Shown here: one piece after another, positions 20,588 to 63,225 of the stretch
How positions within the stretch are numbered: the stretch's first letter is position 1
Layout of the letters: the number at the start of each line of letters is the position of its first letter
Assembly (NCBI GenBank): GCA_026874595.1
Contig: CM049307.1
Span: 48,333,678-48,397,677 of the forward strand
Direction of reading: 5' to 3'
Length of the DNA: 64,000 bases
Source of the DNA: Sipunculus nudus
Taxonomy: Eukaryota > Annelida > Sipuncula > Golfingiida > Sipunculidae
Notes under the pieces: model-generated
Told to the model about the DNA's origin: nothing
What the model saw: the letters and a program-made list of their open reading frames with translations, nothing else
Database searches by the model: none
Made by a program: the position numbers and the translations under genes

Positions 20588-22134
20588 TAGTGTTTGACAT
20601 TTATAATAAGGGATACAGTCGGACCCAGTTAAATGATTTATTTTTATTATTCTTATCATGATATTTACCATAAGTGTTACAAGGATCAATTCATTTCCCT
20701 TTGTCCCGACAACATCCCATAGATATAAGATTATCGAAGGTCCAGTACCGGGTCTATCATTTAATAAGACGTGGATTATTGACAGTAAACTTTGTAGGCG
20801 GGGATAACGCGCGCTTAACAGACATCTCTTCAACACAAGAATCTTGATTACACTCCACACTTCCGCCAGAGGTCGTTTCTATTTAAAAAAACGAACTTAT
20901 TCCAGTTCGGGAGTGTGGGAGGGCCGGGACTCCTTGTCTCAATTGTCAAACTTTAAAACAAAATTTGTTATATTTGGAGGTAGCACCTTCTCTTAACATT
21001 TTACATGCGTATGCTTACAAAATATTACTTGTTCCGTGAAATCCTTTCCACAAACCACCTTTTTATATGTATTTTTCATTGAAACAATATTTATCCAGCA
21101 TATAAGAACGGACTTTAATACCCTCTTCACTATATTTATACCTACGCCGTTTGTGTATTTAGATACCCTGGTGATTTGTGGGTGGACGATTTTGAAGCCC
21201 ACAAACCTTAACCTGCAGAGTCGTAATCTTGTGAGTCCGATTCTGCGCAGTGTGTGGCATTCCCTCAAGATCAAACCTCCTATGTAAAAACTTCATCGTT
21301 TTAAAGGTGCCCATCCATCTGCCTTTTGAAAAAGAATTTATGTGATTTCTGGCTTCCTCTATGTATCTAAGGGTAATTTTGGTTATCAAAGTTCTTATCA
21401 GGCCTTCGTGAAGGATATGTGAACTTGTTTATCAACACATTGATTGTAAACACAGCAATGTTGACAAACGGTAAAAAACATGTAACGCAAGGTGGTAGGT
21501 TGCATATATGCGGAGGTAGAAAGGTCACTTGTTGCAAAACACCATTTGCAAAGCTCTGGATTATCTGACTTGGTGCCAAATGCCCTTGATGAATTTATTT
21601 TGATTATTTTGGCGGGCCAACACCTATTATAAAATCGTTGATTTAACAAAACAAGCAGCCTGTGTGCCGTGATATCCACGTTTTCTCGTCTTTTTTTATA
21701 AAAGCTCCAAGGGATTACCTTTAGTTTATAAAGGTCAGATAGGTGATTGGAACCCTTTTAGTGGTAAAAAGCGAAAGTTTAAGAGAAATCCATGCTGCAT
21801 AGCCTCATAAGTATTGATGTACACAGAAAAAACTTTGGGATCATTAAATAATATTCGAATCAGAAATTCCCAGCATACCGTCTCGGCGGCCCAGAGTACT
21901 TTTTATTCAGGTCACACCGCACGATGTTCTCATTCAAAAATAGAACGTCATCTTTATCCGGCTTGGCCGTCGATCACCCGGGTTTGAAGACCTGTGTGTG
22001 GGTCCCGTTATAGAATACCTGTAATTACGCTCCTGTAAGATATGTATTCTTACGCCGTTAACCCGTATCCCAAAGGTCTGCATTAATCATATTTCTGGAA
22101 ACGAATCGGTGGTACGTAAGTGGCACCTCGGTGA
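20588..22134. other. Non-coding, nothing firm recognised
   Basis: Several overlapping frames at 20993-21679 have no domain. GTGAGTCCGATTCTGC near 21230 is a weak B-box look-alike without an A-box. No gene is supported. Confidence 0.45.
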
Positions 22135-22400
22135 TAAATGGGTTCAGTGGGTCCGCAATTAGCATGGACTCTACAGATCATTCTGACCGATATCTCACAG
22201 GAGAAACGGGTATCTACAGAAAGGCCTGTAATGAGGAATAGAACTACTGCGATTTATCGGAAAGCGTTAAGGTTGGCAATAATTAATCAAAGATTATTTT
22301 TAAATGATAAATCATTCGTAGCACCATTAGATTACGTCACTCCCCTAAATAAGAGGAGGGTTTTTAAATGGCATTTAATCTCATAATCTTCGGCAGCTGA
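22135..22400. promoter_or_regulatory. Candidate conserved enhancer
   Basis: GGCAATAATTAATCAAAGATT (homeodomain plus TCF-like), TAAATGATAAATCATTCG, ACCATTAGATTACGTCAC and TTTTTAAATGGCATTTAATC lie close together in repeat-free sequence. The 82-codon frame here has no domain. Motif-based. Confidence 0.3.
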
Positions 22401-24105
22401 ATGATTCTTTGGCATATATTGTCGATTAAACGTTAAGGGGATAAGTTTCACCTAAAAATGTTTTATGTCTACGATAAAATAACAGTTCAACCCATGCAGG
22501 GAGTCTCTCAATTCTCAGAATACCTATAGCAATTAATAACCGGAAGTGAAAATAGCGCACCGGCAGGGCGCATGGAGAAGAGAACACTAAACTCAAATTT
22601 AGTTATTTATTACATCAATAAATTTCTCTTGGTGAAAACAGTAATGAATATTGCATTTAGTAGTCGGGCTTTTTCTCGCTGAACCTTTTAAGACCTTACC
22701 TCCAGCGTTTTACACAGCCCGATATGGGTTCTGTACATTTTACACAGCACGCCAGGGAAACAGAACAGTCTGATAAAAACCCTGCCAGTCGCCCTGGTTG
22801 TAACGAAACATCCATCTTCCAAAACAACGCAGTCACCATGCAGAAAACACAATAATTGACTCAGCTGCGAACCAATCTGTGCTGCTGGACCTCAAAGCCC
22901 GTCCCTGCTTTGAATTTGAAAATAACCCATGAGATTTGGCAGATTTGACATTTTAAATAAATACATACAAGGATGTTAAACTTCCAAACCTGATGAGTAA
23001 GTTCTCAGAAATCTATTAATCATAAAATTTGTCAGACGGGAACGCTTCTGTTTTTTTAACCGGACTGGACTTTCATTGGAACAAAAACTGAGACTAAAAC
23101 ATATATAACATTTTCCCTTGAGTGGAATCTTGGTTTGTCTCTTGGATGATTGCTTACCATATGCAATAACATTATTAAAAGATGTGTATTCTAATCCTAT
23201 ATAGATACCTTCCCAATTTCTATTAATCAAATTTATTTTAAATCAAAATGTTTATATGTTTTCATGAAAACTATGTTCTTTAGATAGTGCTTCGCTTCAG
23301 TAATACGCTTTCAACTGGTGAGCTGCAGACAAACTCTGCCCAAAATACCAACGAATGGGCGGCCTCTATCTTGGAAAAATAAATCGCCCTGTGTCGCATT
23401 GGCATAGATATTTTTAAAGTATACAGATACCTCTAAAATGTAATTGCTCATCCCCGGGTTCTTACCCGAACCCTCCACAAAATGTCATAAAAATTCGTTC
23501 ATCGCTGTGAAAATTTGTGTAAATTAAGTTACAAAATAAAACATCTTACGTGACCACAGAGAAAATAGAATTTCTAACCACCTAGGTCTACCATAAGAAC
23601 CCTGACCAAACGTTTGCACTTGTTAAGAGATGTCTGTCCGTATAAAATGTCTACCATCTTGTTAAAAATATAAAACTGCATGACCCGTAAAAGATATAAT
23701 GTTATTGTAGATATAAACATTCATAATCGCTTTTCCCGTGACCACCTGAGTAAAGTTCCACACTAGGGTACCGGGCATGTGGGACCAGTTATGATTGGAC
23801 ACATGCATCGTAAATCAGAACCTGGTGATATAAAATTTAAACGTAAAAAAATAGCATATGAAATGTCAGTAACCACGTGCCTCCCGAAAAGACATGCCGA
23901 AAGCAACACACTATTTCCAATGACAGACATATGTATTATCCCAAGTATTAATGCTTAGTTCATGTGGGTCTGTTTCGTTAGGTCTTGTTTATAGGGGTTG
24001 CATTCTGAGATGGTCTTTTCCGATAGGTTCAGCATTTCGTTAAGATTCTTCACGCTGTTTTCTTTATGAATCCCGTACATTATCCTCAGTCATTTATGAC
24101 ATCGT
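22401..24105. other. Non-coding; Maf/AP-1-like site near 22858
   Basis: Segment 22740-22930 is relatively GC-balanced and holds AATTGACTCAGCTGCG, a Maf/AP-1-like site. The remainder is AT-rich with no supported feature. Confidence 0.4.
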
Positions 24106-24109
24106 GCAG

Positions 24110-24565
24110 AAATCCTCACTCAGGGCGCGTGGCGCATTTGCGTTACAGCGGCGGATACGGGTTAGTATTGTCAATACAGCGTGACCGATCTCTCTCCCTT
24201 AAAACTTGCTAACAATGATGAATGACCGCTTGGAGGGTGGTCGTACGCGGCCTCCGCTAGCGGGCGTGTATGACTGATGGGGCCTTCCCATCATCCTCTT
24301 GTCATTACATTCTTTACGGCAGTGATGCTTCGATAAGCCGTAACACCCCATTGTCCAGCGGCGCCAATGAAGCAGTCGCCAGCGCCGAAAGGGGCATGGA
24401 ACCACTGGCGTGAGAAATCCTTGTGTGACATGAGTAGCTTGCAAGATGACCATTCACCTTTAGTGTGTAACTTTTGTTCTTGACGTATGTTTCGGGGCGG
24501 CGGTATCCAAAGTCTGTTTTAACCCTACATGCGACCCGCCACTGACTAATGTGCATATATACTTA
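24110..24565. other. GC-rich block with open minus-strand frames and a donor-like site
   Basis: Two overlapping minus-strand frames (24199-24453 and 24314-24556) lie in a GC-rich island. On the minus strand ACG|GTAAGTATA (about 24560-24572) is a good donor consensus, but it lies upstream of these frames rather than at their end. No domain is recognised. A conserved non-coding element is at least as likely as an exon. Confidence 0.25.
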
Positions 24566-26040
24566 CCGTTATACGTTATTTCTCCAGGCGATAAACAGTT
24601 CTATTGATTTATCTTATGTATGCCCTTTTTGTAACAGCAGGGGTTTGATACAATGGAGCCTGCCCCGAGGTCCATCTTTTTTGTTCCTCTTTGATCCTCA
24701 ATACAAGTAAGAGTGCCTGGTTTTATATTATTAAAAGCTCTCTCCTGATTATGATGTGCTAAATGAGTGGCTGCCTGTTTTATATAATAAAACGCTTGCC
24801 TTGCCTAAAACTGAAAGCACAAGTAGATTAACAACCATAGTAAAAAAAATGATCCCTCGCATATATATAATCTTTTTTTTCTTTTAAGATTTGTTCATCG
24901 AGCGACGTTTGCATTACTGATAGATTGAAAGTACCTATTTTTACTGTGTTAAGATACAATACGCAATCGTAAAATATACCATTTAAGAATTTATTCTAGA
25001 AACCTATACACTTTGATTTATCGACTGTCAAATTTGTATGACAATCTGAGAGGTAATGGTTTCCATTATGGTTATATCTAAATATACAATCATAATTAAT
25101 CATCATTTTTTCAAAGTCATCATTATACAACGTTCCTGTATACTAAAATTCCGTGATCCTTTATATGAAAAACTAACCTTGGATATTTCATTTACTTTAT
25201 TAGTTATGTATTACTTCCGCTAAGGAGGTTATGTTCTCACCTGTGTCTGTTTGTTCGTTTGTTTGTAAGTCTGTCTGTTGCAGGATCTCTAATGCAGTTG
25301 GGATATATAACTTGGCGGAGGTCTGCGCTCCTTATGTTCAATTCTATTTATAGGCTTAGAATTGCTTTAATTGGACTTTACTGACATGATGGCGTCTAAG
25401 TGCCTTTTAACTCACAATCCCTAGTTACTTATTAAGTAGCCTGTTAATTGGCACTATTGCCCAAGTAACATTGTTTGTTGAACCTATCACGCGTTTAGAT
25501 AGTTATTATTGAAATATAGGACAAATACAATATGGAAAGATTTGTCTGGAAGATTGAATGCAAGATGTTTTAAAGGGCCTATCCTGATATCTAGCCTCAA
25601 TTAACTAAAAATAATCACTGGAACCTTCCATAAAAATAAGCCAGATTTCGCCGAACTCAGGTACACTGGTTGTTCGTTTTGTTTATAACCCCTAAATAAT
25701 AATAAACATATTCAGGAAGGACACCTAGCGGTAACTTGTTTTTTTTTTCAACTTGGGCGCATGTAACATGATTACTGATAGCTTATAGATAGGTCATATT
25801 TCCGTCACCGAGGCATTATACGAATCTTTCTTAGCCGCAGTTAGCCGAAGTTTATGACTATATATGCACGCATAGTAAGCCAGAAATCACATTAATTCGA
25901 CAGATAAAGCAGGTGAATAGCTGGCTTTAAAATAATCTATCACCAAAGGGGTTTCGAAAAAGAAGGGTATGAAAACCATATTATGAGCTAGCAGTTCGGT
26001 GGCTCAGGGACAAACATTCGATTAAAATTGTTATGGGGTG
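24566..26040. other. Non-coding, nothing recognised
   Basis: Short GTTTGTTCGTTTGTTTGT-like run near 25247 only. No gene is supported. Confidence 0.5.
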
Positions 26041-26118
26041 ACTTGTGCGCCACCGACATGGGTTCGAATCCCGGATCGGCCCAGAATTTTCCCCTGAATA
26101 ATTTGTCTTCGTAACAAA
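26041..26118 (+). mobile_element. tRNA-like SINE, family 2 copy 1
   Basis: GACTTGTGCGCCACCGACAT, then the B-box GGGTTCGAATCCC, then GGATCGGCCCAGAATTTTCC and a TTTGTCTTCGTAAC tail. This matches copy 2 280 bases downstream with only a few substitutions. A clear A-box at the expected distance is missing, so this copy is truncated or rearranged. Confidence 0.65.
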
Positions 26119-26227
26119 ATGGGGGTTTGTCCAATGTGACGGTAAACTTTGTGGCCAAGGGAATAAGCTCACCAGTGTGACTCCTGGGATAATTAGTCTT
26201 GTTCTGATAGCAGAACGTTCATAAGAA

Positions 26228-26241
26228 GGGGGGGGGGGGGG
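26228..26241. repeat. Poly-G tract (14 bases)
   Basis: G run between the two family-2 SINE copies. Confidence 0.9.
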
Positions 26242-26295
26242 TGTTACGGGGTGACATAAAAGCCGACAGAACTGTTTCGCTATTGAAGCTTGCTT

Positions 26296-26398
26296 TTCTA
26301 GCGAAGCGGTTGGTACGCATGACTTGTGCGCCACCGACATGGGTTCGAGTCCCGGATCGGCCCAGAATTTTCCCCTCAACAATTTGTCTTCGTAACAA
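26296..26398 (+). mobile_element. tRNA-like SINE, family 2 copy 2
   Basis: An A-box-like TAGCGAAGCGGTTGGTACGC (about 26299) is followed by the same GACTTGTGCGCC unit and B-box GGGTTCGAGTCCC as copy 1, giving tRNA-like spacing. The shared 78 bases run 26321-26398. The nearby minus-strand frames are shadows of these copies. Confidence 0.7.
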
Positions 26399-28561
26399 CA
26401 TGCTGTTCGTAAACAACAAAGACTCTTATATTATAAGAAGCTACTAGTAAAAACTAGGACATTTAATCTAGAGATATCTCAACAATCGTCGCAAGAAGGC
26501 TAAAACATCTGAGTGTAAATTTTGTTTGTCTAAAAAAATTCTCCTACCTCATCAAAGCCAAAATTTACTGGAAAAATTGCAAAACGTATGGTACCTGAGG
26601 ATAGAGTTTTTTAAAAACAGTTTCGCATGTTCGAGGTTAAGAATTGTTCGAGAACATATATACAGTTGTCTCGCTTATCTTGAAGTCATAATTTTTTAAA
26701 ACACTGTAGTACAAAAACATAAGTTTAGAATGACTAAGGAACTATGATGAGTCGCGATATAGTCCGCGGCAATCAACCACTTAATATCCAAGTAAATAAG
26801 GAAATTATGAAATTCGACAGAACTGTAAATGTTAAATTTTTAAACAGTCAAATTTCAAAAACTAGCTTTGAAATGGTTAAAAGAGAAACCATGGTACATA
26901 TTAAATCGTAGAAAGGACTGTATCAGCTGCTTACTCTGCCTTATTCCCAGTAATTTCCACTGCCAACTCTACCGATGGCATTTTCACTTCCGCTAATTGC
27001 AGCTGCTTTTCTACGTAGAGAGGTTTCGCCCGGGTTGTGCCTGCTAGCTATTTTTGTAAACTAAGTGCAGTAGGCACTTTTGCTGCCAATTAACCTAGTA
27101 TCAATGGAACGACAATAAAAATCACGTTGAATGAAATTACATGACTTACATAAATTAACTTTCACTGTTCCCTAGGTTTGATAGCATTAGCCTTAAAATA
27201 AATCTTTATCCATATTTTCTCCGAAAGAAGGGTTTCGTTGAATCAAAATGCACCTGCATTATCGGTAATTTGATGAAACTTTAAATATTTAAAAATGAAA
27301 TAACTGACACACGGTTACTCTAGATTAATAAAATACTCTTCCTTCATTTGAGGAGGTACATTTCCCTCTTGACTAGGAACTGTATACTTTCACGTCATGC
27401 ACTCAGTGAGGTGTAAATTCCTCTTCGATAAACGAAAAACGATACTTACATCAATATATAAAATATTAGATGAGGTATCATAAAAATCCTACATTTGGTA
27501 TCTTGTTGAATATTGTACGATAGACTTATTGAGAAATGTAAAGCAGATTACAGAATTCTATTGGTCTTATACCAAAGAAAGTATTCTTAACAAATATATA
27601 TATGGGATATATAACTAAAACAAATATGTATTTGCAGGATTCTAACACCTTTGTAAATGCAATCTCATCCTCCTCTTCTCTCTCATATAATGAGGTATTA
27701 TTTAAAAAGGCTTACATACCCCTCTCCTTACCTTTTTATTCACTTTCAAATTTTTTTCTCTTAAGTATATCAAATAATGCATCTTCTTCTCTCTAATGTT
27801 TATAACACAAATGTGGACACAGAGAATAAACAATTTTATCATGTTTGTTAAAAAAATACTTGTGGAAATATTTAATGCCAATGTAAACCGACTTGAAATA
27901 TCCAAAAACATACTAAAATTATGGATATAGATAAGAATATCCGCAAATATTGAAAAAAATGTGTGGTCAGTGCCTACAGGTGTGCCTCCGCCAAGAGTCC
28001 AGTCAAACTTTCTATACCCTACACAGAATAGGCCTATGTGTGTCACGGTTCACCACGTTTGGACAACAGCTAAGTAAAAGACGTCAAAGACTGTCCTTAT
28101 TTATGTGACTGCAAACAGACGAACCAACCAAGCAAGTAACCAACCAAATGAAAAACATTCCCTCGCCACCTGGCGCAGCTATTATTTTGTAAACGTCCAA
28201 GAATTCATTTAAGCTTCAGAACGATGCCTGAATAAGCAAAGGTCAGCCATGTGGAAGAATGAACCTGCATGGCTCATAGGCTAATTGCAGCTGCTTTTGA
28301 AAAGTTAAAGAATTTATTATTTCATAATTATACATAATTCATAATTAACTTCAAAGGAAAAACTCTTTGTGAAGAAAAAAACAACTAGTCCTTTGGTCTA
28401 TTAGTTATATTTATGTGAGTAAAACTGGTAATAAATAACTTCAAAGCCCGTAGCGTTATGTCTGCCCGACTAATTCCACTATTCGGACTTATTTACCTGG
28501 AAAGATGAAAAGATCGGGGAATTAATAAGCACCAGTAGAGATTATCAAATGTTCCACTCGG
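26399..28561. other. AT-rich non-coding, nothing recognised
   Basis: No domain in the frames at 27602-28046. No repeats beyond short A/T runs. Confidence 0.5.
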
Positions 28562-28569
28562 ATCTGTAC

Positions 28570-29345
28570 CAGACATGCGGTGATTACGTGGTATATGTAA
28601 TCGATTACGATTACGATTACTCTGACAATAAATGATTACGATTACAATTACGATTACCAAAATAAATTCATGTAATCGATTACGATTACGATTAGTTTAT
28701 GATTACATCAAAAAGTAATCATGATTACAGCCGCGATTACAAACCATAATATTGTCATAAGGTTATGCAAGAATTGTATACTCTAACCTTTATTCAATGC
28801 ATCAAAGAAAAAAAACACAGTATACAGATCCAATAGTTAGTCTCATCAAGATATGAGACAGATAAAATAGTCTGAAGAATATGATTTATATCATTTCAAA
28901 TGCTTGTTGCACATTATAAACATAAGTCTTGATTTTATGATTTCGCAGGGTTGGTCAAAGAAATTTCAACTGCGGGGTAGGGGCGGGTCTTGGCTAAATG
29001 CTGGTTATGCGGGGCAGGGCGTGCTACATGATTGAAATAGGGTTTCTGCGAGTCAAAAATATGATTGTAGTAACAGTGATCACCTTTACCAAAATATAAT
29101 GTCCATGTAATCATCCTCCGCCCTCCCCCACTATTCAGAGAATGATAGTTATATATTGTAAATGAAAAATATTTAAAAGAAATTACAAACTTTGGTTCCA
29201 TTTATGAGTTTACAATAAAATATATCTAAACCTGCTTTAAAATTAACTTATACTGGAAACATACCTTATTCTCTAAAATTTTATACTTAATTGTAATATA
29301 TGTGAAATGTGATGAAGAATATATATTTGAAATATGTCATGCAGA

Positions 29346-29421
<76 letters not shown>

Positions 29422-29953
29422 ATGTATGTGTGTCCCCTGTCATCTCCTCACCCTGGATGATAAATGGACGCCACTGTCAGGAGGTAATTAGCAGGTGAAT
29501 ATTACCTGCCTTTCTATAACTGCTCAGTTGAGCACTTCACCATAGTCTTGACCAAGTTATGATGACTCTACTAAATATGATAGAAATTTAATTTAAAAAT
29601 GCTGATTTTATCTATTCCTCTCTTATTTCACCTCAGAATGCTCACACAAAAAATCCACCTAGCTTCCATTAGATACATGTATTACCTAAGTATGCTATGG
29701 TTGCTGTCAGGAGTCACAACAGCTGCATACTTCAGTTTTTAATCAGTTTTAAACATGAAAGATAAGTGATTAAGGAAACATTAACTGTAGCTCTTTAAAA
29801 TTGGAAAATACAAAAGTAATCAATGTAATCATATCTAATTATCTTGATTACGATTACATTGGGAGAGTAACTGATTACAATTACTTTCCTTTCAAAATAA
29901 ATGTAATCGATTGTAATCAATTACGATTACTGATTACGATTACCCCATGTCTG
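28570..29953. mobile_element. hAT-type non-autonomous transposon with GATTAC end arrays
   Basis: The 1384-bp element is bounded by an exact 8-bp target duplication ATCTGTAC (28562-28569 and 29954-29961). Termini are inverted: CAGACATGCGGTGAT at left and, on the other strand, CAGACATGGGGTAAT at right. An 8-bp duplication and CAG-starting ends are hallmarks of hAT elements. The left 175 bases hold 12 GATTAC and 3 GTAATC words. The right 140 hold 6 and 4. In hAT elements such subterminal repeats are usually transposase-binding sites. The interior has a (TA)n run and no transposase frame, so it depends on another element for movement. Confidence 0.9.
29349..29414. repeat. (TA)n microsatellite inside the hAT element
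   Basis: About 33 TA units. Confidence 0.98.
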
Positions 29954-29961
29954 ATCTGTAC

Positions 29962-31415
29962 ATTTATTTAGTAGTGAATGTAATAACCATCATAGATTCG
30001 CAAACACTAAGTTTACTTCAAGCGCTCACATGCATTAATATGTTTTTATTTATGACCAATCACCGCCGGTCATCATGAGGTCGCAGCCAATCAGATAACT
30101 CTAAACGACCTTACGCCATTTCATGCTCATCCTGCAAAACGTGAAGTATTTATCGTGTTTTTTAAAGTAACCTGTTACCGCCCTGTAGAGCGGCTACATC
30201 TTAATTCATTTTGTTGAAAGTAAACGGGTTATAAATATCATCAAATACATTCAATGTGAGTATGAGAGGGTATATTTAAATTAATCCCTCCTGTAATGAA
30301 GACGAGCTTGATGATACTGGTTTAAAAAAATTATGAGGGAACAGCCATCCAAGCTAACACTTACTCGCTCCACAGGCGCGTCAAATATGGGGACAAACGC
30401 ATTTAAGAAAAGTCGGTTTTTATCAAATATCAAATTTGAAATAATAACGATTTTAGTAAACCGCTCAAATGGTTTACATGAAATAATATCATAAGATAAA
30501 CAGACAAGTAGCAAGCAATCAATGAGTTATGGAAATATATTTATATATATTAATGTCTGACTCATTGGATTTTATGCCATTAGGCCAGTATATACAAAAG
30601 ACCCTTTTTTCGTTGACGCAGATGTAAATTTCATTCCTATTTTTAAAGATTACATTAACAAACCCAGGAAAAGCAAATTTACTTGTTTTCGTCAACCTAA
30701 CAATATTGACATCACTGCCACACGACCTTTAAGAAAAGGTAATAGACCAATGCATGTTATCGCCAGCGGTGCTCAATTGCATATTGTCTCCTCACAGACG
30801 TCGCCTGGGCTCGCCCAGACATGCTAAAATAATTTGCTACTGCTTCTTCAAGCCGGACTGGGAGGATTAGTCGGCGAGTCGTTAGGTGCGGAACTGTAAT
30901 ATATTGAATCAACAATAAAAACGGAAAGAGAAAGCCATGAGAACTGTTTTAGCTGAAACGAAGACTGACGCGAAATCAAATAAACCATTAAAGCATGAAC
31001 GCACAGTGAATATGGGAAAATATTAACCCTTTTTATTTCTTGTTTCAAAGCTTATATAGCTTATATATATGGTATTCGGCTCGGGACTCAAACATGGGTT
31101 TATCAGCTTATGTCTGGGCTGGCTTGCCCGCAGATTTCAGATACTAACATCGCTGTTTGTGACCACACACATGCTTTGTTGTCCAATTTCTGATCGAACA
31201 AAAGAAACACCTATTTCAGGTACATTATACTTAAAACTGCGGGCCTGTATAATATAAACAAGGCTGGATTTAGATGGACACGGAGCGCGCCCTCTGCGAT
31301 TAAAACATCATAGAGAGAGAATAGTGTACGTTTTATACCGAAAGGCAGGGCCGGGTTTTGCGTATCGCACGGTTTTGTTTCCAAAACTTCTGGAAGCGAG
31401 AGACAGCAGTTCTAC
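29962..31415. other. Non-coding; CCAAT pair and a CTGGGC palindrome
   Basis: GACCAATCACC (about 30056) and GCCAATCAGA (about 30088) are two CCAAT boxes 32 bases apart, as in promoters or enhancers, but no TATA or open frame follows. CTGGGC-TC-GCCCAG is at 30805-30818. No gene is supported. Confidence 0.35.
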
Positions 31416-31470
31416 CAGACCCCCCCCCCCCCCCCAAAAAAAAAAAAAAAAGATTTTGTATCCACCCCTT
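31416..31470 (-). repeat. GGGGYGGAT/poly-G dispersed repeat, copy 2
   Basis: Read on the minus strand: AGGGGTGGATACAAAATCTT, a T run, then a long run of G and TCTGG. Lead and G run follow the layout of the copies at 8931 and 48109. Confidence 0.5.
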
Positions 31471-32828
31471 ATAAATGTTTCAGGCGCTACCCGTCATCCC
31501 TGGCCGCCCTTCATATATCACACTGGTAGACTGACAAGAATCGGGATCTCTCTGGTGACAGGGTTATTTTCAACACGCAAGTGGCAGTTGTGTTGATACT
31601 GTTAACAAGCCTTCGCTACCTTCATTAGAAAACATCGGTCACCTTGCGCTGCCGTTCAAATGATTAGCTCCCTTATTATCATGACAAACCCTGCATAATT
31701 CCGCAGATTTCTAATGCCATGTCTACACGAATGTATTTTTGAAGCACTCAGCTTGTGGCTTATTTAATGGACCACAAACAGCGGTGGTCACTGACGGTCG
31801 ACATTTTCCAATACCCTTGATGTCAGTTTATCCGTGAGCGAAAGCCCTCCATATTTTCAAGAGTCTGATTGCTAGGTCTCCCTGTTTGCTTTGGATTGCA
31901 GAACATTCAAGCGTTCATTTCCATACGCCACTTACAATATATTTGGGGTGTTACAGGACCTACTGCCAGAGGGCCTAGACCAGTTTACTTTCCTTGCGTT
32001 GTCTTTGATCAGGCGACAGCTCCCCTGAGTGCCAGTTCCACACACGAACATGTAACTTGTCACATTTAGATTCGGAATATAAAACTTCGGGCCTATGCTG
32101 TATCGTGAAATTAACATTGCATGAATGGAGCACTAGCATTTTATTTTGCTAACGTCGGTATGTATACCCAATTCAGGACATGAGACAAAATTAACGGTTT
32201 TAAAGATACTCAGGTATACATCGATGGAAAAAATTAAAAATCCAGTTATTAATTTCAGCAGCGTCATGCATGCAAGAACGAAGCAAATGATGTTATCAAT
32301 GCAAATCATTTCTAGTTTAGTAAAAAAATAAATAATGATATAAGATGAGCTCCTATTTCCCTTTTAAGTAGTTTTAAGCTGCTTTGGGTAATTTGCAGCG
32401 TGATGGTAACTGCAATCCCTTGATTGTGATATTTTTTTTTAAAACCACTCACATCTAGCATAAAATTGGCTATAACAGTAGGGATTCTCCACATCAAAAC
32501 GCTTTTTATCACTCCTTTATCGATGTATATTTTTGCCTCTCTTGGTACGCAAGGGAAGTTAATGAAAGTCAAGTGATATTAATAATAGAACACCTTGAAT
32601 AATGCATCATGAAAACAGGCAAATCCCAAGGGGGTAAGGTCGGCTGCTCCCTCTCTCGTGGAGTGAAATAGCCTTCAGGGTGAATTGACCTATCCATGAA
32701 CTCTATATGACCTCAATCGCATATTCATTCCATGAATAATCATAAGCATTGGACTAACGATCAACCAATCAGGTGACCTTAAACATTGTCAAGCGTCAAT
32801 CATCCGACAAAAACGAAATTTTGCATAA
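31471..32828. other. Non-coding; balanced stretch at 31730-32070
   Basis: The 31730-32070 part is repeat-free with balanced composition and could be regulatory, but it holds no strong motif cluster. CAACCAATCAGGTGACC near 32763 is a CCAAT/E-box pair. No gene is supported. Confidence 0.35.
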
Positions 32829-32848
32829 TTTGACAGAGCTCTGTCAAA
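32829..32848. promoter_or_regulatory. Perfect 20-bp palindrome
   Basis: TTTGACAGAGCTCTGTCAAA is fully self-complementary. Each half carries TGACAG, the TALE-homeodomain core. A perfect 20-mer palindrome is expected by chance less than once in ten windows of this size. Confidence 0.6.
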
Positions 32849-33101
32849 CAGAACACGTGTAGTCTGTAAATACTACCAGTACCCATGTCGGCATGTTTTC
32901 CGGAATATTTTATTATACGAAGGAGATAGTATAAAAAGTTTCTAGGCTATCGGTTTCGGGAGCCACTCCTCCGACTACCGAGTGAATAATAATGTCTTAC
33001 CTGGCACATAATTCGTATGGGACAAATAATCCAATATATATTGCAACACAGTTCATATATGACTGCGATATAGTAAACAATAGTCAGGTGATACAAGTTG
33101 A

Positions 33102-33149
33102 TGACGTCAGTCAATACGACGTCATGCGCCATCGCCCTTTGTGACGTCA
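33102..33149. promoter_or_regulatory. Cluster of three CRE-type sites
   Basis: TGACGTCA (33102-33109), CGACGTCA (33117-33124) and TGACGTCA (33142-33149) lie within 48 bases. TGACGTCA is the CREB/ATF consensus. A cluster like this is typical of cAMP-responsive promoters or enhancers, though no transcript start is evident nearby. An open minus-strand frame (32947-33186) overlaps without a domain. Confidence 0.5.
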
Positions 33150-36100
33150 TTATTATGTTATAATCAGCTCTCGCTACCATGGGCATGGAAGTCCATACGA
33201 GTAGGAGCGTTTTGGGGGCTCATTAAAATAATAAGTTAAAAGGGCGGAGCATTTGGGCTGTGGTGGATCGGTCAATTGGAGAGTTATGCATTGGCAAACA
33301 TAAACTAAAGTAGGAACCATTAAAGAAACACCATGAAACTTCCATAACAAACATTGACAAAACTTAAGAGTCTCAATATTTGAGCCGTTTTGAATGAAGA
33401 CTCCATACTCACAACAATGGTGGTTTCAATGAATGTGCAAAATGAATTTTTAAGAGGTCTACCACTAGAGCGCATACATCCGCCAGGACAAAACAGCATA
33501 CATTCTACTAGATCTGACCCCTGTATCCGGATATGCACCAAAGATTAATAAGGTCTTCTCATGGAACATGTTCAAACCCTCCGAAACAGGTACATTGTGT
33601 TTTTTTTTTCACAATCCTGACCACAGGAACAATCAAACAGACAAATGGACACAGATGAAAACATAACCTCATTTGCGGAAGTAATATTTATATTATAAAC
33701 CAAAAAGGAAAAAGGAAAACATTACACACGAAATTAGTAAAATTTATGGTCTATTAATTACAGGAATTGATTCAATGAGAACCAGGACAAACATGCAGAC
33801 ACGGGTATAACATAACCATCCAGGCAGCGTTAATTAATAAGCGGAGAATGAGTTATAGAGAAAATAAATTAGCATGAAGCTTAAAAGTATGGTACATCCT
33901 CGAACGGAGTGCAAAATGCTGACTTGAAGCCTTTTGCGTTTAATATAGAACGTGGGCGAGAACCCTCATGCGGCACTTTGTTGTTGACTGAACGGGAAGC
34001 CTTGTTCCCAATTGGTGTTTTATAAACCGTCAACCATAGTTACAAGACATTCAAATTGTATGAAAATTAAACATATAATAAACTGGCATCAAGAGTTAAT
34101 AATACATTTTCTCAACAACAGTAGGTTATGGATATTAGGTATACCGAGTTAACGATGGGTTTTCTTTCGATAGGATCTTGCTTGCTTCCGCCCTGTATTG
34201 TGAACAGTGTACAGGAAGGAGTGCGGTATAAAATCGACAGTCCATAAAATATAAGATAACCTATAGTCTAGCTTATATATCACCAATATACTTTAGAAGT
34301 ATCTCGTGGCTGCTAAGACCAGAATTCATTCTTCAGTGTCACATTGAGTACAAAGGTGATTTAATTTCAACAAAGCCAGACAGAGGTCTAAACACAATTG
34401 TAATGAAAATAAACTTTGTTTTATGTCCAAGGGTATGTTTTGTGGGACAAGACGAGTTCAGTGTCTTTTCGATTTCGCTCGATAGTCTGTAACAATACAG
34501 AAATAGGATAAATTGTAAGCCAGCTGGGTATACCCTATTGTTATATGCTTCGGTCATCCGACGAACCTTCCAACGCATTTGCAACCCCTTCCTTGTACGT
34601 ACAATACGGGGTATCAGTATGCATGGCAGAATAAAGCTCCATTCCTTAAGATGAAGAGAGATATTTATTTTGCGAAAAAAATATTTGTGTATAGCTAACG
34701 TGCTATATTAAATTGATATTATCATTGAAAAAAATGCCATTTGGTATAAGCGTAATGATTAAACTGCAAGATTATGAAAACCAGCATTTAGCATAATGTC
34801 CAATCGTAATTTGTGCTGCCTGAATATTAAACAGGATGCACTGGACAACAGAACTAATCACATCCAATCTAAATAGCAATCTGAAAACGAATAAAAGGAA
34901 AAACAAAGATAGCTTGTAACAAGTTGAATGGACATAGTTGATGTATTAACCTCATGTATACTGAAACAAGCAATTTGATGTATTGAGACTTTTTCCCTTG
35001 AAACATCAGATTCTTTCTATTTAGAAAATGTTGTCTTAAATGATTGATGTTTAACCTTCGGGTTACAGATAACCCACGTAATACACGGTTAAGGCATCAG
35101 AGGGGATATTAATAGTGGAATACCATGACTTTGTTTCTCATGTTGAATGGTTGCGGAAGTGGGACGATGAATCACAATGCTCAGCGTCAAAGTCAAGGTC
35201 GAAACATGCAGGGCAGAAGAAGTTTCTCCAAGTTAACTATAGTGGCGTTGGTTCATTATTGAACGCTGCGAGTTAGAGGATGAAACAAAACTGAAAAAAT
35301 GTGTCCGTGACGTCAGGGTGTTTTTTTAACCGGACTGTCGGCCCCTCGGGCCAGCCAATACTACTCTCGTTTAGTTGGCGGGGGCCAGGGAGTAAGATTA
35401 CATTCTTTTTCGTCGGGAATGACAAAGTTGGAGGCCAGGGCAACTTGTTTTATTGCAAATACCTGATTATATCAAAAGCAAAGGGAGGGATATTGAGCTT
35501 CACTAACAGTAAACTTTTCCTTGAGGGCTAGGCATTAGATAATATCGACTTCGCACCCTCAAGCGCTTACTATTGATACAGACAAGGATGGGTTGACTTC
35601 CCTTTATTACAGAGAGAACTTTCGTCTATGCCCCCGCTATACTGATGCATTTCTTCACTTACTCTTTGCCGTTCTCCATGCGTGTGTTCAAAATGAAGTA
35701 GGGGGCCTTCAATGTGATAAACTATTGTCAAATTTACTTCATAAAATAATTCACCAGATGACAAGGATCCCATGCGAAAATAAAACGGGACCTAGCGTCA
35801 AATACGTCGACCTGAATGGACTCGTGTTTTTTTAGGTATCTAACATTACATATATGATTGAAAATCATTCAAAGGCTTCAGGATCGTGCTCACTGGCGTC
35901 TTAACCTACCTCAAGGGTTCATTATTATACAGTTTGCCATCCCCGAGTGGCCTTTTAATTACGTATCCAATGACATTCGACGTGGTCTCTGCCCCTTAGC
36001 CATATAGGACAAGGACGTAAATCTTTATTTAACGTATCCGTACATGCCATTGACTCTGTTTTCACCGATTACTCATACAATCTGCTATATTATTTAATGT

Positions 36101-51150: not shown

Positions 51151-51598
51151 AAACAAGAGAAGATAAAATGAGAACAAGAAAACATCCAGGGTCAACAAGA
51201 GCAACTAGGGAGAATACGAGGAAATCAATGGTAAACAAGAGAAGGACGAGGGAGAATAAGAGAATATCTAGAGAGAACAAGAGAAAATTCAGAAAGAATA
51301 GGAGAATATTATGGCAGAACATAAGAAAATTCCAATGGGGAAAAGAGGGCATCAAGACAGAACAAAAGTTCCACGGAGAATAAGGGAATATCTAGAGAGA
51401 ACAAGAGAAAATCCAGGGAGAACAGGAGAACATCAAGGCACCACCTTAGAAGACCCAGTGAGGAAAAAAGGTCATCAAGGCAGATCAAAACATGCAAGGA
51501 GAATAAGAGAATATCTAGAGAAAACAAGAGAAAATCCAGGGAGAACAGAAGACCCTGGGAGAATGAGAGAAGATCTAGGTACAACAAGAGAACCAGTT
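51151..51598. repeat. Purine-rich minisatellite with ~123-bp higher-order units
   Basis: An A/G-biased stretch built from variants of AGAGAACAAGAGAAAATCCA. A longer unit containing GAATATCTAGAGA repeats at 51267, 51391 and 51514, a period of 123-124 bases (41 codons). Frames are therefore open on both strands, giving arginine/glutamate/asparagine repeats on plus and leucine/phenylalanine/serine repeats on minus. This is a satellite signature rather than proof of a protein, though a highly charged repeat protein cannot be excluded. Confidence 0.8.
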
Positions 51599-52815: not shown

Positions 52816-53830
52816 TGGCAAATATTAGGTAAGTATACATAGATTATAAAATGTTCTGTTTAATTAAACTCTGTATAAGGGCTTAAAAAGTCTTTGTCGA
52901 AGTTGGAAATCCAACCAAGTGACAACTGATCCCTATAACAAGGGCAAGCATAATATGTAGCAAATATATGTTAGTGGTGGGCCGATCATCGAGCTTTATC
53001 GAAAGTCAGTCGGTTTGCTGCCACTTTCAAGCGCTCGATTACCAAAGGCAACTATCGATTACATCGTAATCATAATAATGAGTCTGTGTTCCCAAATAAG
53101 TTCCTTATGTTACTGAGTATGACACGGTAGATGTGAGAACGGAGGACGTAATAAACCTCTGTGAACTGGCAGGGAGCTGCAGAATTAGCGGGGAGTTTTG
53201 TAACGAGTATATTGCACAACATGGACTGTATGGCGTTAAAATGCTCCATAAATTTTCCGGGTCTATGCAGCAAGTAGATTTCCTGGATTGTCGTTTAATT
53301 CTTGGTTATTATAAATAATTAAAATGAAACTTTTTCAAGCTTATTTTACCAATAATAGGAAAATATAAAGAAGGCAAACTGCAAGTTTTTTTTATATTTG
53401 CCTGAACCGATTATTAATCGATCATCAATCGGTTTGCTCGAACCGATGATCGATTATGAAAAAGGAACCGACTCCCACCACTAATATATGTATAAGTATA
53501 CATCTAATTATAAAATATTAGGTGGCATCGATAAAATGTTTACTATCCGAGGCTGACTTGAAGATAAGCTGATTCAAGACAGGGATAGGAATAATAAAAA
53601 ATAGACAAAACACAAAAACGAAAATACAAATCATGATAATCGTGAACTCATTGCCTAAATAAAAAGAAATAAACTAAAACAATACAGTACATATCTAAAT
53701 TACTAGAAATCTAATAAAATGGCGAATATTAAGTAAGAATACATATAATTATAAAATGTTCTGCATCGAATTTTTGTACAAGTGCTTAATATGATCGTTA
53801 TCTGAGGCGGTCTTTAAACTAAATCACAGG
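52816..53830. repeat. Three diverged repeat units, the middle one split by a hAT element
   Basis: GGCAAATATTAGGTAAGTATACATAG (52816), AGCAAATATATGT joined to ATAAGTATACATCTAATTATAAAAT (52960 and 53491) and GGCGAATATTAAGTAAGAATACATATAATT (53721) are related. Each is followed by ATTATAAAAT and, further on, by variants of GTATAAGTGCTTAA and TCCGAGG-TTGACTTGAAG. Removing the hAT insertion restores the middle unit. Confidence 0.55.
52972..53483. mobile_element. Short non-autonomous hAT element
   Basis: The 512-bp element has perfect 10-bp inverted ends TAGTGGTGGG / CCCACCACTA and an exact 8-bp target duplication ATATATGT (52964-52971 and 53484-53491). Both features are diagnostic for the hAT superfamily. 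Subterminal zones are rich in CGATCATCGA, AATCGATCATCAATCGG and ACCGATGATCGATTA words. The 61-codon frame inside (53133-53318) shows no transposase domain. It inserted into an older repeat. Confidence 0.9.
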
Positions 53831-55624: not shown

Positions 55625-55762
55625 ATCATGGCGGCGGGATGGTTTGTACCTGGATTATCCTATGATGGATCAGGCGTTAATATATTTAAGTTATATCATG
55701 GCGGCGGGATGGTTTGTACCTGGATTATCCTATGATGGATCAGGCGTTAATATATTTAAGTT
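55625..55762. repeat. Perfect 68-bp tandem duplication, period 70
   Basis: Two identical 68-base units (55625-55692 and 55695-55762) start ATCATGGCGGCGGGATGG and end AATATATTTAAGTT, separated by AT. Complete identity points to a very recent event or an assembly artefact. Confidence 0.97.
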
Positions 55763-61574: not shown

Positions 61575-61888
61575 GGCCAAAAAATAAAGGTATGGTTCTC
61601 AGGCACTTTTTTTCGGAAATCTGTGCGGGTGGGCGGGCGGGCGAATTTTCGTTTTTTCCCCTTTTTTGTATGTTCCAAAAAAATGTCATATGATCAGCGA
61701 AATGCTTGAAAATAACAAAATGTTTTTGCTAAATAGGTAAAAGCACATAACAAAGGAAATCTTATCCAAATTGTATTATTTTTTATTCTTGAAAGATGAA
61801 AATCAAAATACAAATTTTGATGCGGGCGGTTAAAATTGACGCGGGCGGTGCCTGAGAACCATATCTTTTATTCTTTATTTTTTTGGCC
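61575..61888. mobile_element. Harbinger-like non-autonomous MITE, copy 2
   Basis: The cleaner copy: TAA | GGCCAAAAAATAAAGGTATGG ... and ... ATTTTTTTGGCC | TAA, giving an exact 3-bp duplication and TIRs of about 35 bases with small gaps. GGTTCTCAGGCAC and GTGCCTGAGAACC are identical arms. The interior aligns with 460-794 in the same orientation. No coding capacity. Confidence 0.85.
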
Positions 61889-63225
61889 TAATATAAAGAT
61901 TCTTTTAATCAATCTTAGATGGAATAGTATCCCTTTTCTCCTTTTCTTTTATTTCTTCTAACTCGTAATAACGTAATAATATTATGTATGGTTTTATATT
62001 AATTTATGGTCTTTTCAACCATTCATATAAATTGAATTGTTTTTCCACTTTTTATGCATTTTATTCATACATCCCACATATATGCAGTATGATATATTTT
62101 TTTGCATTATGAGTGCTATTATGAAACCAGTTCAATGAAGACAACACCATATATATGAATAACACAATAGAAATTTGGATTTATATTCACATGAGATGTT
62201 TGAATCAAACGTACGTTTCCATACTGCAGTCTAAAAGACGCTAATAGCTCACATGATTTCTACCCAATTATCACGTTGTTTGAACATTAACGTTTCTGTT
62301 ATAATTGACTTTATCATAACAAGTAAGCCTTTTTAAAGTGGCAGTTATCATTTACTTTAAAATAAACAAAAACGAGTTTGAAAACAAAACAGCTCAGAAG
62401 CTTGCTTTTACTTTGTTCTGATCGAACACTTGTGAATTGTAACACATTCTAGATGTTTTAGGGGACACTCTGTCGAACAGATCTTTTTATGTGTCTCAGA
62501 AGGTCGTAAACTGTCAATGTGCTGAAACTTTAAGAGACAGAAAATCTGTTGTAGAAAACAGTACCAGTATTTTAAGTAATTTTCTCGGCCTAGCAGGTAA
62601 TATGCTGAAAACAAGAGGCTTGGTGTTGTAAGTGACTCCTTGACACGTGGTAGTCTACATAACACTGAACACAGATTTGATTTTTCAAAGAAACCAACAG
62701 GTACAGTTTACAGATGAAACTGGGACTTATTGCAAAGAACTAAAGAAATATAAATTTCTAAATCCTCGCAAATGTGACAGCTGTCAAACAGAAATGATAA
62801 ACTTTATTTATAGATAAAAAGTAAATCTGCAGTTTTATTAACTCATGATTTTCAACTGTTATAGCCAAACGACAATCCTTTTGTAAAACCCCATTCTATA
62901 CATAGCGATCACGACCAGGAAGGCTGCGTTTCTGCTATTTTAGTTGCATGAAGGGAAATGTTACAGAGTAATTATAATAACAAATCGTTATAATATTCAT
63001 AGTAACAACAACATTCCAATAAAATGCAATAAAATGAAAATAAATCAGTATCATTATCAAATAAGGACTTGCTATACATGTATCTCCAGCATAGGTTCAT
63101 GGATTCAAGCAAAATAACATGAACTGAAGTACCTTTACGGCTGAGAAAAGAGACATTGTATCACTGGCGACGGGAAGTACACCTAAAAAAGTGTTAAAAC
63201 AAGTACACTCACCGAAGTAGAGATG
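61889..63225. other. AT-rich non-coding, nothing recognised
   Basis: The minus-strand frame 62408-62665 has no domain. Confidence 0.5.

Follow-up and report, generated by a model that had tools for sequence, protein, structure and literature searches.

A putative non-autonomous hAT-type transposon with GATTAC word arrays at both ends in Sipunculus nudus

A 64,000-bp stretch of Sipunculus nudus DNA (termed here the window; 37.3% G+C) contains a 1384-bp element that has matching inverted ends, is flanked by an exact 8-bp duplication, carries arrays of the word GATTAC and its complement GTAATC at both ends and holds no recognisable coding region. This element is very probably a non-autonomous DNA transposon of the hAT superfamily--and probably of the Ac-family type--that was inserted by cut-and-paste and mobilised by a transposase encoded elsewhere; we infer from its sequence that it belongs to hAT, that the transposase binds GATTAC and that the element is mobilised in trans. 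Every feature seen in the element is standard for that superfamily. Mobilisation in trans by a GATTAC-reading hAT transposase appears likeliest because the element has the plan of described hAT elements, in which each end carries inverted and subterminal repeats and the duplications are 8 bp long (PMC4890040).

The proposed mechanism is as follows. The transposase would come from an autonomous relative located elsewhere in the genome, and the N-terminal BED zinc finger of this enzyme would bind the numerous GATTAC words in both ends; the transposase would gather the two ends and cut at the CAGACATG tips, and insertion across a staggered 8-bp target would give rise to the ATCTGTAC duplication. 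The Hermes transposase is described as binding its subterminal repeats through an N-terminal BED finger (PMC10368747). In the Hermes structure, the right-end repeats did not engage BED domains, and mutation of putative left-end sites further in left about 70% of activity (PMC10368747); therefore not every subterminal word need be bound.

Boundaries of the element

The element extends from 28570 to 29953 and is flanked on both sides by an exact copy of ATCTGTAC. Its features are listed below in window coordinates, with the strand where one applies:

28562-28569: left target-site duplication, ATCTGTAC; exact match to 29954-29961; its second base is T and its seventh A (nTnnnnAn)
28570-29953: whole non-autonomous hAT-type element, 1384 bp, delimited by the inverted ends and the duplications
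28570-28581, plus strand: left terminal inverted repeat, CAGACATGCGGT; agrees with the right end on the other strand at 11 of 12 positions, the first 8 exactly
28582-28740: left subterminal array, 12 GATTAC and 3 GTAATC (word count), with 6-bp tandem units at 28602-28657 (Tandem Repeats Finder)
28751-29810: interior without recognisable coding sequence and with a single stray GTAATC at 29107 (word count, Pfam, open frames)
29349-29415: (TA)33.5 microsatellite within the element (Tandem Repeats Finder)
29816-29943: right subterminal array, 6 GATTAC and 4 GTAATC; the word nearest the tip runs into the innermost two bases of the 12-bp inverted repeat
29942-29953, minus strand: right terminal inverted repeat, reading CAGACATGGGGT on that strand (sequence comparison with the left end)
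29954-29961: right target-site duplication, ATCTGTAC; exact match to the left copy

The original prediction held that an 8-bp duplication and matching ends delimit a 1384-bp element, and both the coordinates and the exact matches are confirmed. The tip 8-mers are CAGACATG on the left (28570-28577) and, on the right (29946-29953), its complement CATGTCTG; the inverted match extends to 11 of 12 bases, after which the ends diverge. These 8-mers are not unique to the element: ATCTGTAC occurs four times in the whole window and CAGACATG or CATGTCTG three times.

How often such boundaries arise by chance was gauged by simulation. An exact 8-bp duplication accompanied by an exact 8-bp inverted repeat within 5 kb occurs twice in the real window and 10 times in 40 simulated windows, that is, 0.25 times per window; taken alone, the termini of the 1384-bp element are therefore only moderately unlikely to be due to chance. 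When a 5-bp inverted repeat is accepted, 17 boundary matches are found in the real window versus 438 in the 40 simulated ones (11 per window), so that these looser matches are mostly chance. What secures the element is that the outer edges of the two word arrays fall at both of its boundaries, the first words lying 13 bp (left) and 11 bp (right) from the tips.

The GATTAC/GTAATC arrays

At the left end, 12 GATTAC and 3 GTAATC words lie 13-171 bp from the tip and, at the right end (in window orientation), 6 GATTAC and 4 GTAATC words lie 11-138 bp from the tip; on recount, these numbers are exactly those first reported. This corresponds to 8.8 words per 100 bp at the left end and 7.2 at the right, with words covering 57% and 47% of the respective array spans. 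The window as a whole contains 59 such words, 26 of them inside the element (25 in the ends and one in the interior) and 33 outside it. The densest 175 bp hold 15 words inside the element versus 3 elsewhere in the window; among 100 first-order Markov simulations of the window, which contained 37 words on average, the densest 175 bp never held more than 4.

The left array is partly tandem, with a period of 6 over 28602-28657 according to Tandem Repeats Finder, and it contains a 25-base stretch that is exactly repeated 75 bp apart (at 28595 and 28670); local duplication therefore probably helped to build it. Because adjoining words create GATTACGATTAC, the left end is also rich in CpG for its surroundings: the observed/expected ratio is 2.77 in the left end (28570-28750), 1.38 in the right end, 0.31 in the interior and 0.83 in the window.

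Some words are paired as palindromes: two copies of GTAATCGATTAC start at 28597 and 28672 in the left array, and one palindrome with a single mismatch occupies 29913-29924 in the right array. Counted from the tips, the palindromic pairs start at 28 bp on the left and at 30 bp on the right. Similar placement at both ends is only suggestive, arising by chance 7% of the time in a simple placement model, and was set aside as too weak to use as evidence.

Coding content and copies

The longest stop-to-stop frame within the element is 88 codons, and a Pfam search of all six frames of the element yielded no match at an E-value of 1 or less; the element is non-autonomous. Over 21001-35999 (15 of the 64 kb, around the element), a six-frame Pfam search at an E-value of 0.01 or less likewise found nothing, and within the window no match was obtained to Rfam at gathering scores and no tRNA was detected. 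The 64-kb window contains no second copy of the element by blastn, the other matches being either TA-rich repeat or at most 43 bp long; further TA/AT arrays are present elsewhere in the window. Together with remains of mobile elements and a scarcity of long coding frames, such microsatellites are in keeping with eukaryotic DNA. Published titles on CAGACATG transposons or on GATTAC hAT elements were also searched, and none among the matches listed names the family of this element, which is not proof that the family is unpublished.

Classification

The proposed superfamily assignment draws on the ends, the arrays and the duplication, no transposase having been found in the element. The duplication is of hAT length, ATCTGTAC being exact on both sides. 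The arrays occupy only the outermost 171 bp on the left (15 words) and 138 bp on the right (10 words), with words in both orientations, as in described hAT subterminal repeats. The terminal inverted repeats are short, as in hAT elements; at 8 exact bases, or 11 of 12, they lie towards the lower limit of the range quoted for the superfamily, 10-25 bp (PMC8961557). Their shortness counts against the assignment, as do the absence of a second copy from the 64-kb window, the rate at which 8+8 boundaries arise in simulated windows and the 9-bp reading of the flanks described below.

Within the superfamily, ATCTGTAC fits nTnnnnAn, a pattern given as the target preference of Hermes (PMC10368747) and cited for hobo as an indicator of the Ac family (PMC8961557), although only one site is available here, the pattern is a consensus for the family and, at equal base frequencies, a random 8-mer would fit it in 1 case out of 16. 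It does not fit nnnTAnnn, the duplication pattern of Buster elements (PMC3517528), positions 4-5 of this single site being TG. One duplication site cannot settle the hAT family.

Two other kinds of DNA transposon were weighed, each of them improbable. The first is a non-autonomous relative of the P element: P elements and P-MITEs of Anopheles gambiae also have perfect 8-bp duplications, but as described there (PMC1562414) their inverted repeats are 27-31 bp long, some with several mismatches, and subterminal hexamer arrays form no part of that description. Here the inverted match stops after 12 bp, of which 11 agree, and the ends then diverge. The second is a member of some other superfamily, such as a Mutator-like, Merlin or Zisupton-type element, the duplications of which are about 8-9 bp long. 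The flanks of the 1384-bp element can indeed be read as a 9-bp direct repeat, GATCTGTAC, but this reading fits the ends worse, its price being the terminal C/G match of the inverted repeats; moreover, the arrays and the nTnnnnAn pattern favour a hAT transposon. Chances for this second kind are no better than for the first.

Comparison with described hAT elements

Among the closest described systems are the maize Ac/Ds elements, above all the short Ds members; Ac/Ds elements likewise have an 8-bp duplication and the Ac transposase binds multiple copies of a hexamer located within 200 bp of either end (PMC3260210). The Ac/Ds inverted ends are 11 bp long, and the maize Ds-l4 elements are, like the present one, non-autonomous and of similar size, with a modal length of about 1 kb. 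The Ac/Ds hexamer, however, is AAACGG rather than GATTAC, and the tips are C/TAGGGATGAAA rather than CAGACATG (PMC3260210). A second likeness is to goldfish Tgf2 (and to Tol2): Tgf2 starts with CAGA, has an 11-bp inverted repeat and carries subterminal repeats at both ends, and its left 50 bp, as printed, hold one GATTAC; unlike the element described here, Tgf2 is autonomous and has the tip CAGAGGTGTAA (PMC4890040).

Hermes shares 8-bp nTnnnnAn targets and BED-bound subterminal repeats in both orientations, and the quasi-palindrome formed by its STR1 and STR2 near the left tip is loosely like the palindromic pairs seen here; it differs in its AAG(T/C) motif, its ends of about 450 bp and its 17-bp inverted repeats (PMC10368747). 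Finally, hoboVA, which is 1.2 kb long and non-autonomous, shares the 8-bp duplications; it differs in having 12-bp inverted repeats and predicted sites for hunchback and even-skipped (PMC5913719).

These comparisons bear on the original prediction, which proposed an intact-ended hAT-type element with an unusual density of probable transposase-binding repeats. The first part stands, and the GATTAC arrays are probably transposase-binding subterminal repeats, as judged from their position and form; that their density is unusual is not established. For Tgf2, 17 subterminal repeats have been reported on the left and 18 on the right (PMC4890040), and for Hermes 17 and 14 motif copies in its two ends (PMC10368747), which are of the same order as the 15 and 10 words counted here, this being a comparison of repeat numbers rather than of density per base. 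For Ac, the source speaks of multiple AAACGG copies (PMC3260210). Because the motif of Hermes has only 4 bases and occurs in ends of about 450 bp (PMC10368747), the exact-hexamer density of the 1384-bp element may lie at the dense end of the known range. Word-rich ends as such are normal for the non-autonomous hAT-type class.

A second hAT-like element and other repeats in the window

The same boundary scan identified a second hAT-like non-autonomous element, 512 bp long, at 52972-53483. It has TAGTGGTGGG at both ends (10 of 10 bases) and is flanked by an exact 8-bp duplication, ATATATGT (with flanks, 52964-53491), which fits the Buster-type pattern nnnTAnnn. It contains five copies each of AACCGA and CGATTA, all of the latter within 90 bp of the tips, and its left end holds three GATTAC/GTAATC words, the densest such cluster outside the 1384-bp element. 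The two elements have no similarity by blastn, the best match being 20 bp at 85% with an E-value of 4. As one further case, the 512-bp element points to word-rich ends being ordinary among such elements of this genome.

Several other repeats occur in the window. Two copies of a dispersed repeat, about 67% identical, lie at 461-801 and 61576-61895; this repeat contains GCCTGAGAACCATA and is rich in GCGGGCGG. Two 83-bp copies that are 95% identical lie at 26039-26121 and 26320-26402, their starts 281 bp apart; they contain GGTTCGAATCCCGG / GGTTCGAGTCCCGG, which we take to resemble a tRNA-derived promoter box, so that these copies are perhaps a SINE. At 55625-55762, a 70-bp unit is perfectly duplicated in tandem (2.0 copies, 100% match), and a degenerate purine-rich tandem array with periods of 21, 42 and 123 occupies 51234-51552, over which stop-to-stop frames run to between 91 and 111 codons.

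Possible host regulatory sites within the arrays

Bicoid/Otx-type homeodomains prefer the site TAATCC, and ATCGAT suits cut-type homeodomains. Taken together, the two ends (28570-28750 and 29811-29953) contain 15 copies of TAATCG and 11 of TAATCA, and no copy of either TAATCC or TAATCT; TAATCC occurs 38 times in the window. The ends also hold three of the window's six TAATNNATTA palindromes and three of its 19 ATCGAT sites. The arrays had been said to resemble homeodomain sites, and the three TAATNNATTA palindromes give some such resemblance, though not to the classical TAATCC, which the ends lack; the homeodomain idea is weak on these word counts.

A related reading would make the arrays exapted host regulatory modules--that is, homeodomain platforms carried about by the transposon--and would add to, rather than replace, the explanation preferred here. 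The share of TAATNNATTA palindromes found in the ends speaks for it, as does the precedent of hoboVA, with its predicted even-skipped and hunchback sites (PMC5913719); the absence of TAATCC from the ends, the placement of the arrays just where hAT transposase sites belong and the lack of any Pfam domain over 21001-35999 (six frames, E-value of 0.01 or less) speak against it, and such exaptation is very unlikely. Just as unlikely is the notion that host homeodomain or cut-type factors, besides the transposase, read the GATTAC arrays and that the family has been kept or targeted through this binding. Were it true, each insertion would equip the host genome with a preformed group of TAATCG and TAATCGATTA sites. 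That a hAT MITE may spread developmental factor sites is not a new idea, having been proposed in print for hoboVA (PMC5913719).

Similar words in unrelated genomes

The 23-base array pattern was also searched for in public genome contigs of viruses and prokaryotes, where it was found in two contigs filed as bacterial. In these metagenome-assembled contigs (L001, 6119-6141; L002, 1467-1489), tandem GATTAC runs follow GTAATC at apparently intergenic positions, and a second GATTAC run is present at each locus. Both loci were rejected as relatives of the 1384-bp element: at each, a hexamer is simply repeated in tandem, the DNA has a G+C content of 63% and 57%, respectively, and CAGACATG is absent. 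Searches of viral contigs with two element patterns returned 0 loci each, virus and prokaryote collections saying little about an animal or plant transposon.

Short (GATTAC)n runs can thus arise independently of CAGACATG, as in the two bacterial contigs, and 8+8 boundaries turn up in simulated windows at the rate given above, but that the element is a mere tandem (GATTAC)n expansion with coincidental flanking repeats is scarcely credible, given two separate arrays of mixed orientation, each flush against one of the matching boundaries, and 15 words in 175 bp versus at most 4 in the simulations.

Conclusions

Knowledge of hAT transposons in general is unchanged by the 1384-bp element. If its interpretation as a non-autonomous hAT-type transposon holds, it is one more of its kind, and its subterminal word is clear, exact and regular. 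It could then be used, as a clean case, to predict from the ends of an element alone the DNA word that a transposase BED finger recognises.
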